The translations under genes and the position numbers were made by a program. This document shows, piece by piece, positions 100-36,781 of a stretch of DNA of 45,241 bases. Position 1 is the first letter of the stretch. The number at the start of each line of letters is the position of its first letter. This stretch comes from Hyphomicrobiaceae bacterium (GTDB taxonomy: Bacteria; Pseudomonadota; Alphaproteobacteria; Rhizobiales; HXMU1428-3): assembly GCA_021775775.1 (NCBI GenBank), contig JAJFHF010000161.1:1-45241 (forward strand), given 5' to 3'. The notes under the pieces are model-generated. The model had not been told where the DNA came from. It did not search any database and saw only the letters and a list, made by a program, of their open reading frames with translations.

Positions 100-1393
100 T
101 TTTCAAAAATGTTTTCATGATTTATCTCTCGATAGCCTTGAAGCCCTTGCTTTTGATTGGCAAATTTGGGCACGTGATGATCAGTTGCCGCCCCCTTTTT
201 CTGCCCCTAATAAACCTTGGCACATTTGGTTGTTATTGGGGGGGCGCGGGGCGGGCAAAACAAGAGCTGGCGCCGAATGGGTGCGCGCTATGGCATTGGG
301 AAAGACCCCAATTGCACAAGAGCCTGCAAATCGTATTGCTTTGGTTGGAGAAACTTTGGGTGATGTGCGCCGGACAATGGTTGAGGGGGTCTCTGGCTTG
401 CTTGCCATTCACCCTGAGAATGAGCGTCCGTTGTTTGAGCCCTCTAAACGGCGTTTGACCTGGCCCAATGGTTCTATTGCTGAGTTGTTTTCAGCGGAAG
501 ACCCAGATGCGTTGCGCGGCCCGCAATTTATGGCGGCTTGGTGTGATGAGTTGTGCAAATGGTCAAAGGATCAAGAAACTTGGGATATGTTGCAATTTGC
601 TTTGCGCTTGGGTGAGTGCCCACGCCAAGTGGTCACGACCACACCGCGCCCGAGTGCTTTGTTAAAAGGAATAATGGCCGACAGCCAAACCATCATTGGT
701 CGCTCGCGCACCCTTGATAACGCAGCTCACTTATCTGGTAATTTTTTAAAGAGCGTTCAGGCTCGTTATGGTGGGACCCGGCTTGGGCGCCAAGAGCTTG
801 ATGGTGAGCTCATCACTGACCGGGCTGATGGGTTGTGGACCCGTGATCAGCTTGACAAATGCCGGGTTCAAAGTGCGCCGGAATTAGAGCGCATTGTGGT
901 TGCCCTTGATCCGCCAGTGTCGACTGGGAAAAAGGCAGATATGTGTGGTTTGATCGCCGCTGGATTGGGCGTTGATGGACGCGGCTATGTTTTGAGTGAT
1001 AAGAGCACGAAAGGCTTGGCGCCGCTTAAATGGGCCGAATGTGCTATTGCCTTATATCATAGAATTGAAGCTGACCGGATCGTAGCAGAGGTGAACCAAG
1101 GCGGGGATTTGGTGGAGACGGTTTTGCGCCAAGTTGACCCTAGTGTGCCGATTAAAAAGGTTCATGCCAGGCGCGGTAAATGGCTGCGCGCAGAACCGAT
1201 AGCGGCGCTTTATGAACAAGGGCGGATTAGCCATGTTGGGAGCTTTCCTGAGCTTGAGGATCAGATGTGTGATTTTGGGCCTGGTGGGCTCTCGAACGGG
1301 CGCAGCCCCGATAGGCTGGATGGTTTGGTTTGGGCGCTTACAGACTTGATGTTAAGTGGGCAAGTAAATCCGCGTTTGCGCCGTTTATTCTAA
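62..1393 (+). CDS. GTA/phage terminase large subunit (TerL, gp2-like)
   Basis: Walker A LLLGGRGAGKTRAGAEW, followed by terminase ATPase/nuclease-like sequence (ALDPPVSTGKKADMCGLIAAG); start is TTG and uncertain. Confidence 0.93.
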   Translation: MRRALKNSSKGCDFQKCFHDLSLDSLEALAFDWQIWARDDQLPPPFSAPNKPWHIWLLLGGRGAGKTRAGAEWVRAMALGKTPIAQEPANRIALVGETLGDVRRTMVEGVSGLLAIHPENERPLFEPSKRRLTWPNGSIAELFSAEDPDALRGPQFMAAWCDELCKWSKDQETWDMLQFALRLGECPRQVVTTTPRPSALLKGIMADSQTIIGRSRTLDNAAHLSGNFLKSVQARYGGTRLGRQELDGELITDRADGLWTRDQLDKCRVQSAPELERIVVALDPPVSTGKKADMCGLIAAGLGVDGRGYVLSDKSTKGLAPLKWAECAIALYHRIEADRIVAEVNQGGDLVETVLRQVDPSVPIKKVHARRGKWLRAEPIAALYEQGRISHVGSFPELEDQMCDFGPGGLSNGRSPDRLDGLVWALTDLMLSGQVNPRLRRLF

Positions 1394-6736: not shown

Positions 6737-7147
6737 ATGAGTGCCCAAAAGGGAAAAGATATGTTGTTGAAGCTGGATGGTGACGGGCTTGGTAGCTTTG
6801 TAACCGTGGCTGGCCTTCGTGCTAAAACGTTAGCTTTTAACACTGAGAGTGTTGATATTACTGATGCAGAAAGCCAAGGGCAATGGCGTGAATTGCTTGC
6901 ATGCGGTGTAAAGACGGCGCGGGTTTCTGGTAGCGGCATTTTTAAAGATCAAAGTTCAGACAGCACGGTTCGGGATTATTTTTTCAACGGAACCATTCGT
7001 AACTGGCAAATTATCATTCCTGATTTTGGTAGCGTGGAGGGTTTGTTTCAAATCTTAGGATTTGAATATGCCGGCGGGCACAATAATGAGCTTTCATTTG
7101 AACTGACACTTGAGTCTGCGGGCTCTTTAACATTTAGCGCTCTGTAA
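6737..7147 (+). CDS. Major tail protein (gp9-like)
   Basis: MSAQKGKDMLLKLDGDGLGSFVTVAGLRAKTLAFNTESVDITDAES motif of GTA/phage major tail proteins. Confidence 0.93.
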   Translation: MSAQKGKDMLLKLDGDGLGSFVTVAGLRAKTLAFNTESVDITDAESQGQWRELLACGVKTARVSGSGIFKDQSSDSTVRDYFFNGTIRNWQIIIPDFGSVEGLFQILGFEYAGGHNNELSFELTLESAGSLTFSAL

Positions 7148-33211: not shown

Positions 33212-33621
33212 GTGAAGGGGTATCCTAAATCGTAAGCAATATTGCTAAATGGGAAAAATTTTGCCCCATAGTGGCGAATTTTTAGACTTAGAACAAGCCA
33301 GTAGACGCTATATATTCAAATTTTTAGGATTCTTACTAGAAATATGAAAATATGTCTCATTCGGATGGTCTAACGGCTTTCTCCCTTTTGATACATCTGC
33401 AAAACCAGATCATTTATAATATGGATATTATTGATGATTTTTGCTTGGGCAGGTACGACAAAGCGGTTGACCTTGACCTTTAATTGATTGAGCTTGTTGC
33501 TAATCTAGGACGGCTGTTACTTGAAGACCTCAATAAGCAATTGTCCTGGTAAGCTTCGTGGTTTGATTTGAAAACTTGATAGTCACCCTTTGTTAGGGGG
33601 GCCGAATTGTATCGTAAATAT

Positions 33622-34632
33622 ATGACGAATAAACAAAAAATATTTTCTGTAGCGCCCATGATGGATTGGACTGACAGGCATTGTCGTTATTTTCATCGCC
33701 TGATGACGAAGCACGCGCTTTTATATACGGAAATGATTACAGCGGATGCTATCTTGCATGGGGATCATGATTATCTTTTAGCCCATCATGCACATGAACA
33801 TCCGTTAGCGTTACAGTTGGGGGGGAGTGACCCTGAAAAACTTCGAGGGGCGGTGCAAATTGCCTCTCCATATGGTTTTGATGAATTTAATTTGAATGTT
33901 GGTTGTCCCTCTGACCGGGTAAAGACGGGTAAGTTTGGGGCTTGCTTGATGAGAGAACCAAATCTTGTAAGAGATTGTATGCTTGCAATTAAAGAAACCA
34001 CTCAGCGTGATGTGAGTGTGAAGTGCCGCATTGGTATTGATGATATGGACGATGATGAAGGTTTAACAAACTTTGTCGAGATTGTGCAATCAGTTGGTAT
34101 TGAGACTTTTATTATCCATGCACGAAAGGCATGGCTTGATGGTTTAAGTCCAAAGCAAAACCGTGAAGTGCCGCCTTTAAATTATCAGCGGGTTTATGAT
34201 CTGAAAGTGGCTATGCCTCATTTGACGATAATCATCAATGGTGGTGTGGATACCATTGAGCAGGCCCAGATGCATTTGGAAAAAATTGATGGGGTGATGA
34301 TGGGGCGCGCCGCTTATAACACGCCTTATGTTTTGTCTGATGTGGATGAGAAATTGTTTGGCCTTGATGCTGAGTTTAAAAGTAGAGATATGATTGCCCA
34401 TGAGATGATTGGGTATATTGAAGATGAGCTTAGTCAAGGGACACGCTTGCATCAAATTACACGACATATGTTGGGTTTGTTTCATGGGCAACGCGGGGCC
34501 AGATTGTTTAGGCGGGTGCTTTCGAGCGAAGGAACACGAGACGGCGCTGGCATTGATGTTTATAAATTGGCGCTTGAGCGGATGAAAGAGGTGGGTGTCT
34601 TTCAATCTGATCGTGGGGAAAATGTGTTTTAA
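33622..34632 (+). CDS. dusA: tRNA-dihydrouridine synthase A
   Basis: FSVAPMMDWTDRHCRYFHRL, NLNVGCPSDRVKTGKFGACLM, RKAWLDGLSPKQNREVPPLNY; ATG 33622 preferred. Confidence 0.95.
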   Translation: MTNKQKIFSVAPMMDWTDRHCRYFHRLMTKHALLYTEMITADAILHGDHDYLLAHHAHEHPLALQLGGSDPEKLRGAVQIASPYGFDEFNLNVGCPSDRVKTGKFGACLMREPNLVRDCMLAIKETTQRDVSVKCRIGIDDMDDDEGLTNFVEIVQSVGIETFIIHARKAWLDGLSPKQNREVPPLNYQRVYDLKVAMPHLTIIINGGVDTIEQAQMHLEKIDGVMMGRAAYNTPYVLSDVDEKLFGLDAEFKSRDMIAHEMIGYIEDELSQGTRLHQITRHMLGLFHGQRGARLFRRVLSSEGTRDGAGIDVYKLALERMKEVGVFQSDRGENVF

Positions 34633-34729
34633 GCCAGCCCGGTTGCTGGTGGGCAAGCTGAAGCGCCAAGTGAAACCAGGTTGCTGGTGTGAAGGCTCAA
34701 AAGTAAAAATGGTTTTGTTTGGAGGATTT

Positions 34730-34790
34730 AAAAAAAAAGCACAGCAGCTTGGTCCAAGGAGGGGGGGGGATGAGGACCTTACTGCTGTGC
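34730..34790 (-). terminator. Intrinsic terminator (minus strand), distal hairpin of the putative sRNA, also downstream of motB
   Basis: Stem 34782-34790 / 34739-34747 (9 bp) plus inner GGTCC/GGACC stem, then nine T on the minus strand. Confidence 0.8.
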
Positions 34791-34840
34791 CAAAAAGGGC
34801 GCTTATGAAGTTTTGGGGGGAGGGCTTCATAAGTGCACCA
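34730..34840 (-). ncRNA. Putative sRNA with two hairpins bearing C-rich anti-SD loops and an intrinsic terminator (cuckoo / alpha-r14-like)
   Basis: Minus strand: GCACTTATGAAG-CCCTCCCCCCAAAA-CTTCATAAGCGC, then GCACAGCAG-...GGTCC-TCATCCCCCCCCCTCCTT-GGACC...-CTGCTGTGC-TTTTTTTTT; 5' end not determined. Confidence 0.7.
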
Positions 34841-34848
34841 AAGTAAAC

Positions 34849-35721
34849 TTATTTCTTATTCCTTTTGTTTTTTAAGGAATGTTCGACTGGAAACGCTGGT
34901 TTTTCCGACATAATCAATATTGAAATACGTCTGTTTGCGGCTAAGAAGGGATCTTCTGGGAACAAAGGTTCAATATCTGCTTTTCCGCCTACTTCATAGA
35001 ATCGGTCATGTGGGATGCCATTTTCTGATAGAATTGTCCGTGCCATTTGAGCGCGATCTGCCGATAGATCCCAAAGGGAGAACCCTGGAGTAGAATAAAG
35101 CCTTTGTGCATCGGTATGTCCCATGACTTTAATTCTATTTGGTAGCCGTTTGATAATTGGCGCCATTGTGGCTAGTAATTTGCGGGTGTGCTCATAAGGG
35201 CGGCTAGATTCTTTTGGGAACATAGAACGCGCTTCTTGATCTATGAGCTGGATGTGCAACCCTTCGGGGGTTTCTTCAACCATTATATGACTGGATAAAT
35301 GTGTAATTTCAGGCATTTCTTGCCAGGCCTGTCTCAATGAGGCTGAGGCAAGTGCAAATTGTTTGGGGCGCTCAATATCATTTTTTTCTATATCGTGCGT
35401 ATTGGCTTCTGGGCCTTGTTTGCTGCGTTGGTCATGACGGATGTCTGCAAAATCAGTGTCATTTGTTTGGGCAACAGGTCCTATTTTTTTAATGTATTGG
35501 CGCACAGGTGCCCCTTCAATTTCAATCATACCGGCTTTGCGGTTGACAAATTGAATACCAAAGGCATCCTTCATTGAGCCTGCAACAACTTGTAATTTTT
35601 GTTTGTCTTGAATTGAGAATGAGATGAGGAGAACAAAGAAACAAACGAGGATTGACATAAGGTCAGCGAAAGTGACCATATAATCCGGGACGCCCCCACC
35701 ATCTCCTTTTTTCTTAGCCAT
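34849..35721 (-). CDS. MotB/PomB-like flagellar stator protein with OmpA domain
   Basis: GGGVPDYMVTFADLMSILVCFFVLLISFS plug/TM; OmpA-like IKVMGHTDAQRLYSTPGFSLWDLSADRAQMARTILSENGI. Confidence 0.9.
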   Translation of the reverse strand: MAKKKGDGGGVPDYMVTFADLMSILVCFFVLLISFSIQDKQKLQVVAGSMKDAFGIQFVNRKAGMIEIEGAPVRQYIKKIGPVAQTNDTDFADIRHDQRSKQGPEANTHDIEKNDIERPKQFALASASLRQAWQEMPEITHLSSHIMVEETPEGLHIQLIDQEARSMFPKESSRPYEHTRKLLATMAPIIKRLPNRIKVMGHTDAQRLYSTPGFSLWDLSADRAQMARTILSENGIPHDRFYEVGGKADIEPLFPEDPFLAANRRISILIMSEKPAFPVEHSLKNKRNKK

Positions 35722-35790: not shown

Positions 35791-36564
35791 CTATGCTGCA
35801 GCTTCAGCTTCAGGCGTGGCTTTTTGTTTTGCTGTCATATAAGCTTCTAACATTTCACGTATTAATGCTGGCGCTTTGTTATCTCTTAACTGCATGACAC
35901 CATCTATCACCAATGTTTGCTTAACTTCTTCAATTGCAATTTTATTTGAAAGTTTGTCTGCAAGAGGAAGGGCGACAAGGTTTGCCAACAAGGCACCATA
36001 GAGTGTTGTCAAAAGAGCAACGGCCATAGCAGGGCCAATTGCAGCTGGGTCATCCATGTTTGATAACATTTGCACCAGGCCAACAATTGTACCAATCATA
36101 CCAAAGGCAGGGCCTGCATCACCAAGCATTTTATAAACCCGTTGAGCCTCATCAAGACGCTCTAAATATAGATCACGCTCTTTTTCCATCGTTTCGCGCA
36201 TGAAAACTTCGTCATAACCATCAGCTACATATTGAGTGCCTTTTTTCAGAAAATCATCACTGATATCGACACCTTCTAGACCAAGAGGGCCTTCTTTGCG
36301 GATGATGTCTGCCAGATTGCAAATTTCATTTGTAACGTCGACAGGGCTGACACTTTTGTGGGTAAAGGCGATCTTGCCGCCAAAGGCGAGTGAAGAAAAT
36401 ACATTGCTAAGAGGGAAGCGCATTATCGTTGCTGCAAAGCCCCCACCAAAAACAATTAATATAGAAGGAACGTTTACAAAGGTATCAAGTGAGCCACCTG
36501 ATAGAATGGCATACATAACAATGCCAATACCTGCCACTAAACCGCCTATTGTAGCTATATCCAT
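35791..36564 (-). CDS. MotA/PomA-like flagellar stator protein
   Basis: MDIATIGGLVAGIGIVMYAILSGG..., PAFGMIGTIVGLVQMLSNMDDPAAIGPAMAVALLTTLYGALLANLVALPLADKL; start M18 of the track ORF preferred. Confidence 0.9.
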   Translation of the reverse strand: MDIATIGGLVAGIGIVMYAILSGGSLDTFVNVPSILIVFGGGFAATIMRFPLSNVFSSLAFGGKIAFTHKSVSPVDVTNEICNLADIIRKEGPLGLEGVDISDDFLKKGTQYVADGYDEVFMRETMEKERDLYLERLDEAQRVYKMLGDAGPAFGMIGTIVGLVQMLSNMDDPAAIGPAMAVALLTTLYGALLANLVALPLADKLSNKIAIEEVKQTLVIDGVMQLRDNKAPALIREMLEAYMTAKQKATPEAEAAA

Positions 36565-36781
36565 AATTTGAAACCCCAACCCTAAGTCACATGTAAAAAG
36601 AAACATGTTTGTCAATTGAGATTTATATTACGCATTTAATATAAATTATCGCTAAAGCAACGTGGTTAAAACTTGTGAAATTATATGGTCATTTTGATAC
36701 AATTTTTCCAGTCACTTAGCACATACCATCAGCTTGATTTTACGGACGCATAGTTTTTGCGCATTCGCTATCTTTAAAAAG

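Follow-up and report, generated by a model that had tools for sequence, protein, structure and literature searches.

A pair of tandem hairpins with C-rich loops, the second of them an intrinsic terminator, was found directly 3' of motB on the minus strand of the window (the whole 45,241-nt stretch of DNA analysed here), and elements of the same design were found just 3' of Peptidase_C93 genes across the order Hyphomicrobiales. This order-wide element probably represents a small regulatory RNA of an uncatalogued kind, similar to the 6C RNA of actinobacteria. We call the class C-loop 3'-UTR RNAs, meaning two tandem hairpins with C-tracts in large loops, the second hairpin being a terminator. Its interest lies in an anatomy that is kept across an alphaproteobacterial order, beside one protease gene, and that is not in Rfam. 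The genome of the window is referred to as G000, and its genus relatives as G001 to G007.

Anatomy of the element downstream of motB

The element and its surroundings comprise the following features.

34730..34848, minus strand: putative 3'-UTR-derived C-loop RNA of about 110-120 nt that runs from the motB stop as far as the U tail (fold z -7.85)
about 34797..34839, minus strand: hairpin 1 (RNAfold and RNAalifold), with two-sided changes in 3 of the 13 pairs of helix 1
34811..34824, minus strand: loop 1, CCCUCCCCCCAAAA, with a C-tract kept across the genus
34738..34791, minus strand: hairpin 2, the intrinsic terminator stem, with 8 of the 20 pairs of helix 2 two-sided and 98.3% of cells paired
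34756..34773, minus strand: loop 2, UCAUCCCCCCCCCUCCUU, with CAUCCCCCC at 34772-34764
34730..34738, minus strand: U9 tail of the terminator, nine T in the sequence
34849..35721, minus strand: motB, host gene of the 3' UTR (Pfam MotB_plug and OmpA; stop codon 34851-34849)
35791..36615, minus strand: motA, upstream of motB on the same strand (Pfam MotA_ExbB)
33607..34632, plus strand: dus, tRNA-dihydrouridine synthase, the convergent neighbour (Pfam Dus)

As minus-strand DNA, loop 1 reads CCCTCCCCCCAAAA (34824-34811) and loop 2 reads TCATCCCCCCCCCTCCTT (34773-34756); loop 1 contains nine C with a longest run of six, and loop 2 contains twelve with a longest run of nine. RNAfold gave a minimum free energy of -43.6 kcal/mol for 121 nt compared to -20.8 +/- 2.9 for 200 dinucleotide shuffles, none of which folded as well (0/200). 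Sequence and fold thus confirmed two strong hairpins with C-rich loops after motB, as well as the intrinsic terminator formed by hairpin 2 and nine U, both of which had been recognised in an earlier sequence-only reading. The stems that it had described had to be corrected: its 12-bp stem 1 folded as nine contiguous pairs, an A.C mismatch and then 2+2 pairs, and stem 2, given as 9 bp, a 3x3 loop and 5 bp, folded as 11 bp, a 2x2 loop and 5 bp. Positions 34600-35100 showed no sigma-70-like promoter, and the RNA would start about 10 nt past the motB stop codon, where hairpin 1 begins; the motAB 3' UTR is its most likely origin.

A terminator hairpin with a C-rich 7-mer in its loop was found twice among 173 in 428 kb of G000, the motB site being one of the two, and twice among 124 in 400 kb of G004. 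Some of the sampled G000 contigs had been picked for containing CATCCCCCC, so that the G000 count could only go up. Placed directly after a stop codon and ending in a strong terminator, the pair could be a double-hairpin terminator and exonuclease barrier that serves motAB purely in cis, with loops that are C-rich because C cannot disturb the stems, or that bind protein or the decay machinery. We consider a purely cis role without trans function unlikely, if still worth weighing; ordinary terminators in G000 and G004 have loops that are short (5-6 nt at the median) and hardly ever C-rich, which speaks against it.

The motB copy is limited to the genus

Each of the five other genus genomes in which the region is intact (G001, G003, G004, G006 and G007) had the tandem hairpins after motB; in G005, the contig end falls within hairpin 1, past a run of eight C. 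No comparable hairpins were seen after motB in the other families of the order that were compared, or in additional named species, Roseibium and Stappia among them; the motB copy is limited to the genus, whose named records are metagenome-assembled Hyphomicrobiales. A covariance model (R1) matched the motB elements of six genus genomes (in the window at 34726-34849, E 1e-17, the window element having been in the training set) and, more weakly, one further G004 locus.

The RNAalifold consensus of the six-sequence alignment comprised 33 predicted pairs with 93.4% of cells paired and two-sided changes in 11 pairs, a count that stems from six related genomes and hence from few independent events. 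None of 500 shuffles did as well, and slid controls reached 35-52% paired and at most five two-sided pairs. The tandem C-loop pair after motB is not due to chance. Stems diverge between genus members, the loops remain C-rich, and loop 2 carries an unchanged CAUCCCCCC in every one of the six; covariation downstream of motB and conservation of the loop C-tracts, which the sequence-only reading had named as checks, were therefore both found. Its emphasis on CCUCCUU as an anti-Shine-Dalgarno core held only in part. The heptamer is present in loop 2 of G000, but CCUCC is confined to the G000 loops and lacking in the other five genus motB-3' RNAs, so that the anti-Shine-Dalgarno identity is species-specific variation inside a C-tract. 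The window contains three CCTCCTT against 4.7 expected, and the heptamer, not being rare, is by itself no evidence.

An order-wide element 3' of Peptidase_C93 genes

A second C-loop element of G000 came to light via a pattern search for tandem C-tracts followed by a T-run, the other sites being mostly unstructured. It lies directly 3' of a Peptidase_C93 (BTLCP) gene identified by Pfam (G000:C119:29865-29966; L181:3365-3470, plus strand). We take Peptidase_C93 to be the family of LapG, and the gene just upstream of it in G000 is a PilZ gene (Pfam), that is, a cyclic-di-GMP gene. Each of the eight genus genomes has the element after its Peptidase_C93 gene, and model R2 was built from these eight elements. 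Beyond the genus, seven of the eight best R2 matches were just 3' of Peptidase_C93, the eighth (L294) being at a contig edge. Model R3, made from sixteen sequences (Peptidase_C93 elements and look-alikes only) and applied to 298 genomes from the order, added fifteen loci (L312-L326, L315 being the same locus as L298), with a Peptidase_C93 ORF upstream in 14 of 15; the distance between ORF and element was at most about 60 nt in thirteen and 312 nt in one, and L326 was not assessable. Taken together, the top R2 and R3 matches outside the genus lie 5-60 nt 3' of a Peptidase_C93 ORF with one exception, and since neither model carries protein information, this adjacency is independent support. Counting R2 and R3 matches, the Peptidase_C93-3' element occurs in at least 13 families besides the window's own. 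Several of the weak R2 matches inspected were plain terminators, and the low-scoring R3 matches, which include generic terminators, were for this reason left uncounted. Two-sided changes affected 20 of 21 pairs of the R3 training alignment, with 98.5% paired, in an alignment fitted to, and therefore leaning towards, its model. Five plasmid-borne Peptidase_C93 paralogues were without the element. A search of plasmid DNA yielded nothing. No Rfam family matched the order-wide element at its cutoff, and none was acceptable at gathering or relaxed thresholds.

Across the order, loop 1 measures 22-33 nt, is 42-69% C, often reads UCCCCNCCYCCCCRUCCCC and is kept as the stems change, which a purely cis terminator does not readily account for. 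Loop 2 is usually C-rich; the terminator loop is C-poor in the Peptidase_C93 members G005, L322 and L324, so that the second loop can do without C, a point in favour of the cis role. Some Peptidase_C93-element loops carry three or four C-tracts and, like the loops after motB, are C-rich and G-poor, as would suit a Rho-loading site, or a DNA i-motif or opposite-strand G-quadruplex, that aids termination between the convergent motB and dus. We regard such a role as very improbable: the stable hairpins confine the C-tracts to short loops and U9 follows, so that Rho is unneeded, and loop 1 of G000, G004 and G007 has a single C-tract each, so that quadruplex capacity is not conserved.

The window RNA shares the order-wide design in its tandem hairpins, C-rich loop 1, terminator and position just 3' of a stop codon. 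R3 also matched two motB-3' RNAs, that of G006 at E 7e-6 and that of G001 at E 4e-4, which suggests, at the level of sequence models, that the motB and Peptidase_C93 elements share a common descent; the window's own copy was unmatched at E <= 0.01, and the matches thus fall short of demonstrating it.

Comparison with known small RNAs

The actinobacterial 6C RNA (B11) is the closest known kind. It was described from actinomycetes and is defined by a pair of stem-loops that typically have six C each (PMC4046766). In mycobacteria it goes by the name B11. The terminator loop of B11 has nine C and its other loop six, and its loop seeds repress targets via G-tracts near the ribosome-binding site (PMC12395582, PMC10470900). 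The motB-3' RNA likewise has two adjacent stem-loops with at least six C each within about 100 nt, and in both the last C-loop forms an intrinsic terminator, here the stem followed by U9. The two differ in that 6C is an actinomycete RNA, whereas the hosts here are the 3' UTRs of Peptidase_C93 or motB. The 6C model (RF01066) had no match in the window at E <= 10 and no sequence of the order that was searched reached its gathering cutoff of 47 bits, the best relative (L293) scoring 37.5; the motB-3' RNA is therefore 6C-like in anatomy and falls outside the family under the curated test.

Small RNAs of the MotR/FliX class are not known to have a C-loop architecture. They resemble the motB-3' RNA in its probable origin, MotR, FliX and others being Escherichia coli flagellar small RNAs derived from the UTRs of motility genes (PMC10578931). 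RepG of Helicobacter pylori has a C/U-rich terminator loop that acts as a seed on a homopolymeric G-repeat in the mRNA leader of a chemotaxis receptor (PMC8295292). The motB-3' RNA shares the C-rich terminator loop, but RepG is intergenic and pairs through that loop, whereas the motB-3' RNA has two C-loops and a probable 3'-UTR origin. 6C/B11 and RepG, neither of which was named in the sequence-only reading, are closer analogues than cuckoo and alpha-r14, which it had proposed.

That the RNA is a true alpha-r14/cuckoo anti-Shine-Dalgarno RNA is the least probable of the identities considered, and we rejected it given CCUCC in a single genome, the negative RF02344 search and the core CAUCCCCCC. 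The resemblance is one of layout: alpha-r14/NfeR1 and cuckoo/CcsR are alphaproteobacterial RNAs with hairpins in tandem, whose stems vary and whose C-rich loops repeat a pyrimidine motif, and CCUCCUU sits in loop 2 of G000. Rhizobial alpha-r14 models have three or four hairpins, however, against two in the motB-3' RNA. The Rfam ar14 model (RF02344) had no match at its cutoff in the window, in G000 or in the genus, its one sub-threshold match in the genus being an ordinary terminator, and a search with ar35 returned terminators only. The cuckoo/CcsR host ccaF1 is presumably a DUF1127 gene, whereas the host here is motB; no DUF1127 gene was detected in G000, and the DUF1127 loci of the genus were without such hairpins. 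CcsR1-4 are processed from the ccaF1 3' UTR and so are likewise 3'-UTR-derived (PMC8625941), which is the other point in favour of membership. The loops differ as well: the alpha-r14/cuckoo family carries an identical CCUCCUCCC motif in every loop (PMC10746234, PMC3927594) that is absent from the window, its counterpart in the motB-3' RNA being CAUCCCCCC, and the loop alignment of the genus, in which CCUCC is not kept, already contradicts membership.

Proposed mode of action

On balance, we lean towards reading the motB-3' element as a 3'-UTR C-loop small RNA of motAB that pairs with G-tracts in trans. It would be made as the 3' end of the motAB transcript and end at its own intrinsic terminator, and would probably be freed by an endonuclease or accumulate after mRNA decay. 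Kept single-stranded in the loops, the C-tracts would serve as seeds: by pairing with G-tracts located at the translation start of a target mRNA, or close to it, they would block its translation, as B11 and RepG do. Predicted pairing of the window's loop 2 was -21.7 kcal/mol with a G-tract start vs -10.7 kcal/mol with a consensus Shine-Dalgarno sequence and, together with the conserved core CAUCCCCCC, this points to G-tracts and not GGAGG as suited partners, contrary to the general Shine-Dalgarno competitor that had been suggested. The start region of psd (phosphatidylserine decarboxylase; AGAGGGGGGATGAATT, L108, G000:C9) is complementary to loop 2 of the motB RNA, and the psd start AGAGGGGGGATGAA was the only convincing start-codon match in G000, with strong predicted pairing to that loop. 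The match was not recovered in other genomes, no conserved target was found, and a candidate target in one genome only is not counted as evidence.

The sequence comparisons strengthen the basic proposal, a regulatory RNA with C-loops, and extend it to a putative order-wide class that is not in Rfam. More tentatively, and with rather less confidence than for the motB copy, we propose that 6C-like 3'-UTR small RNAs occur throughout the Hyphomicrobiales, that the ancestral copy followed the LapG-family protease gene beside a PilZ gene, that the genus gained the motB copy, and that pairing with G-tract starts links motility and attachment. If so, the class would be a Gram-negative counterpart of the actinobacterial 6C RNA tying motility to surface attachment; the placement after motB and after a LapG-type protease gene with a PilZ neighbour suggests that a role in motility and adhesion is worth testing. 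For work on the order-wide element, the host gene is defined, a covariance model is at hand, and mutation offers a sharp test.

Further copies and minor observations

A third C-loop locus of G000 was matched by R2 at G000:C129:1977-2076, 3' of a gene for a Lys-rich secreted-type protein, copy numbers for a single genome being lower bounds. It occurs in two genus members in all.

L303:1478-1577, minus strand: third element, on G000:C129 (R2)
L309:1440-1530, plus strand: its counterpart, on G005:C324

A scan of 828 kb for two-hairpin C-loop pairs recovered only the elements 3' of motB (G000 and G004) and 3' of Peptidase_C93 (G000). The same scan over 1.2 Mb of G004 gave three further pairs without a U tail, taken as background, and single C-loop terminators too, one of them between chemoreceptor genes. 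Genome-wide, CATCCCCCC had 37 sites in G000 vs six for the reversed pattern; the motB site was the only hairpin loop among 30 inspected and the rest look coding, so that the motif alone fails to find members.

Tandem hairpins with loops CCCUCCCUCCUUCCC and CCUCCCCCC were seen at G004:C2:145212-145336 (L141/L185, minus strand; R1 E 7e-4), an intergenic site with chemoreceptor genes near on both sides. Two C-loop hairpins lie amid phage-head-like genes, probably of a prophage, on G005:C385 (L184, about 700-820, plus strand). A terminator hairpin on G004:C2 (L265, about 6780-6990, plus strand), lying between genes and upstream of one for a MoxR-like ATPase, has the loop CCCCUCCCCCCGAUCGGGC and is a possible further C-loop RNA. 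Four genus members (L158, L162, L166 and G003:C14:191-282) have three CTCCCTCCCC-type repeats near the parS-like palindrome TGTTTCACGTGAAACA; the repeats are possibly origin-proximal.
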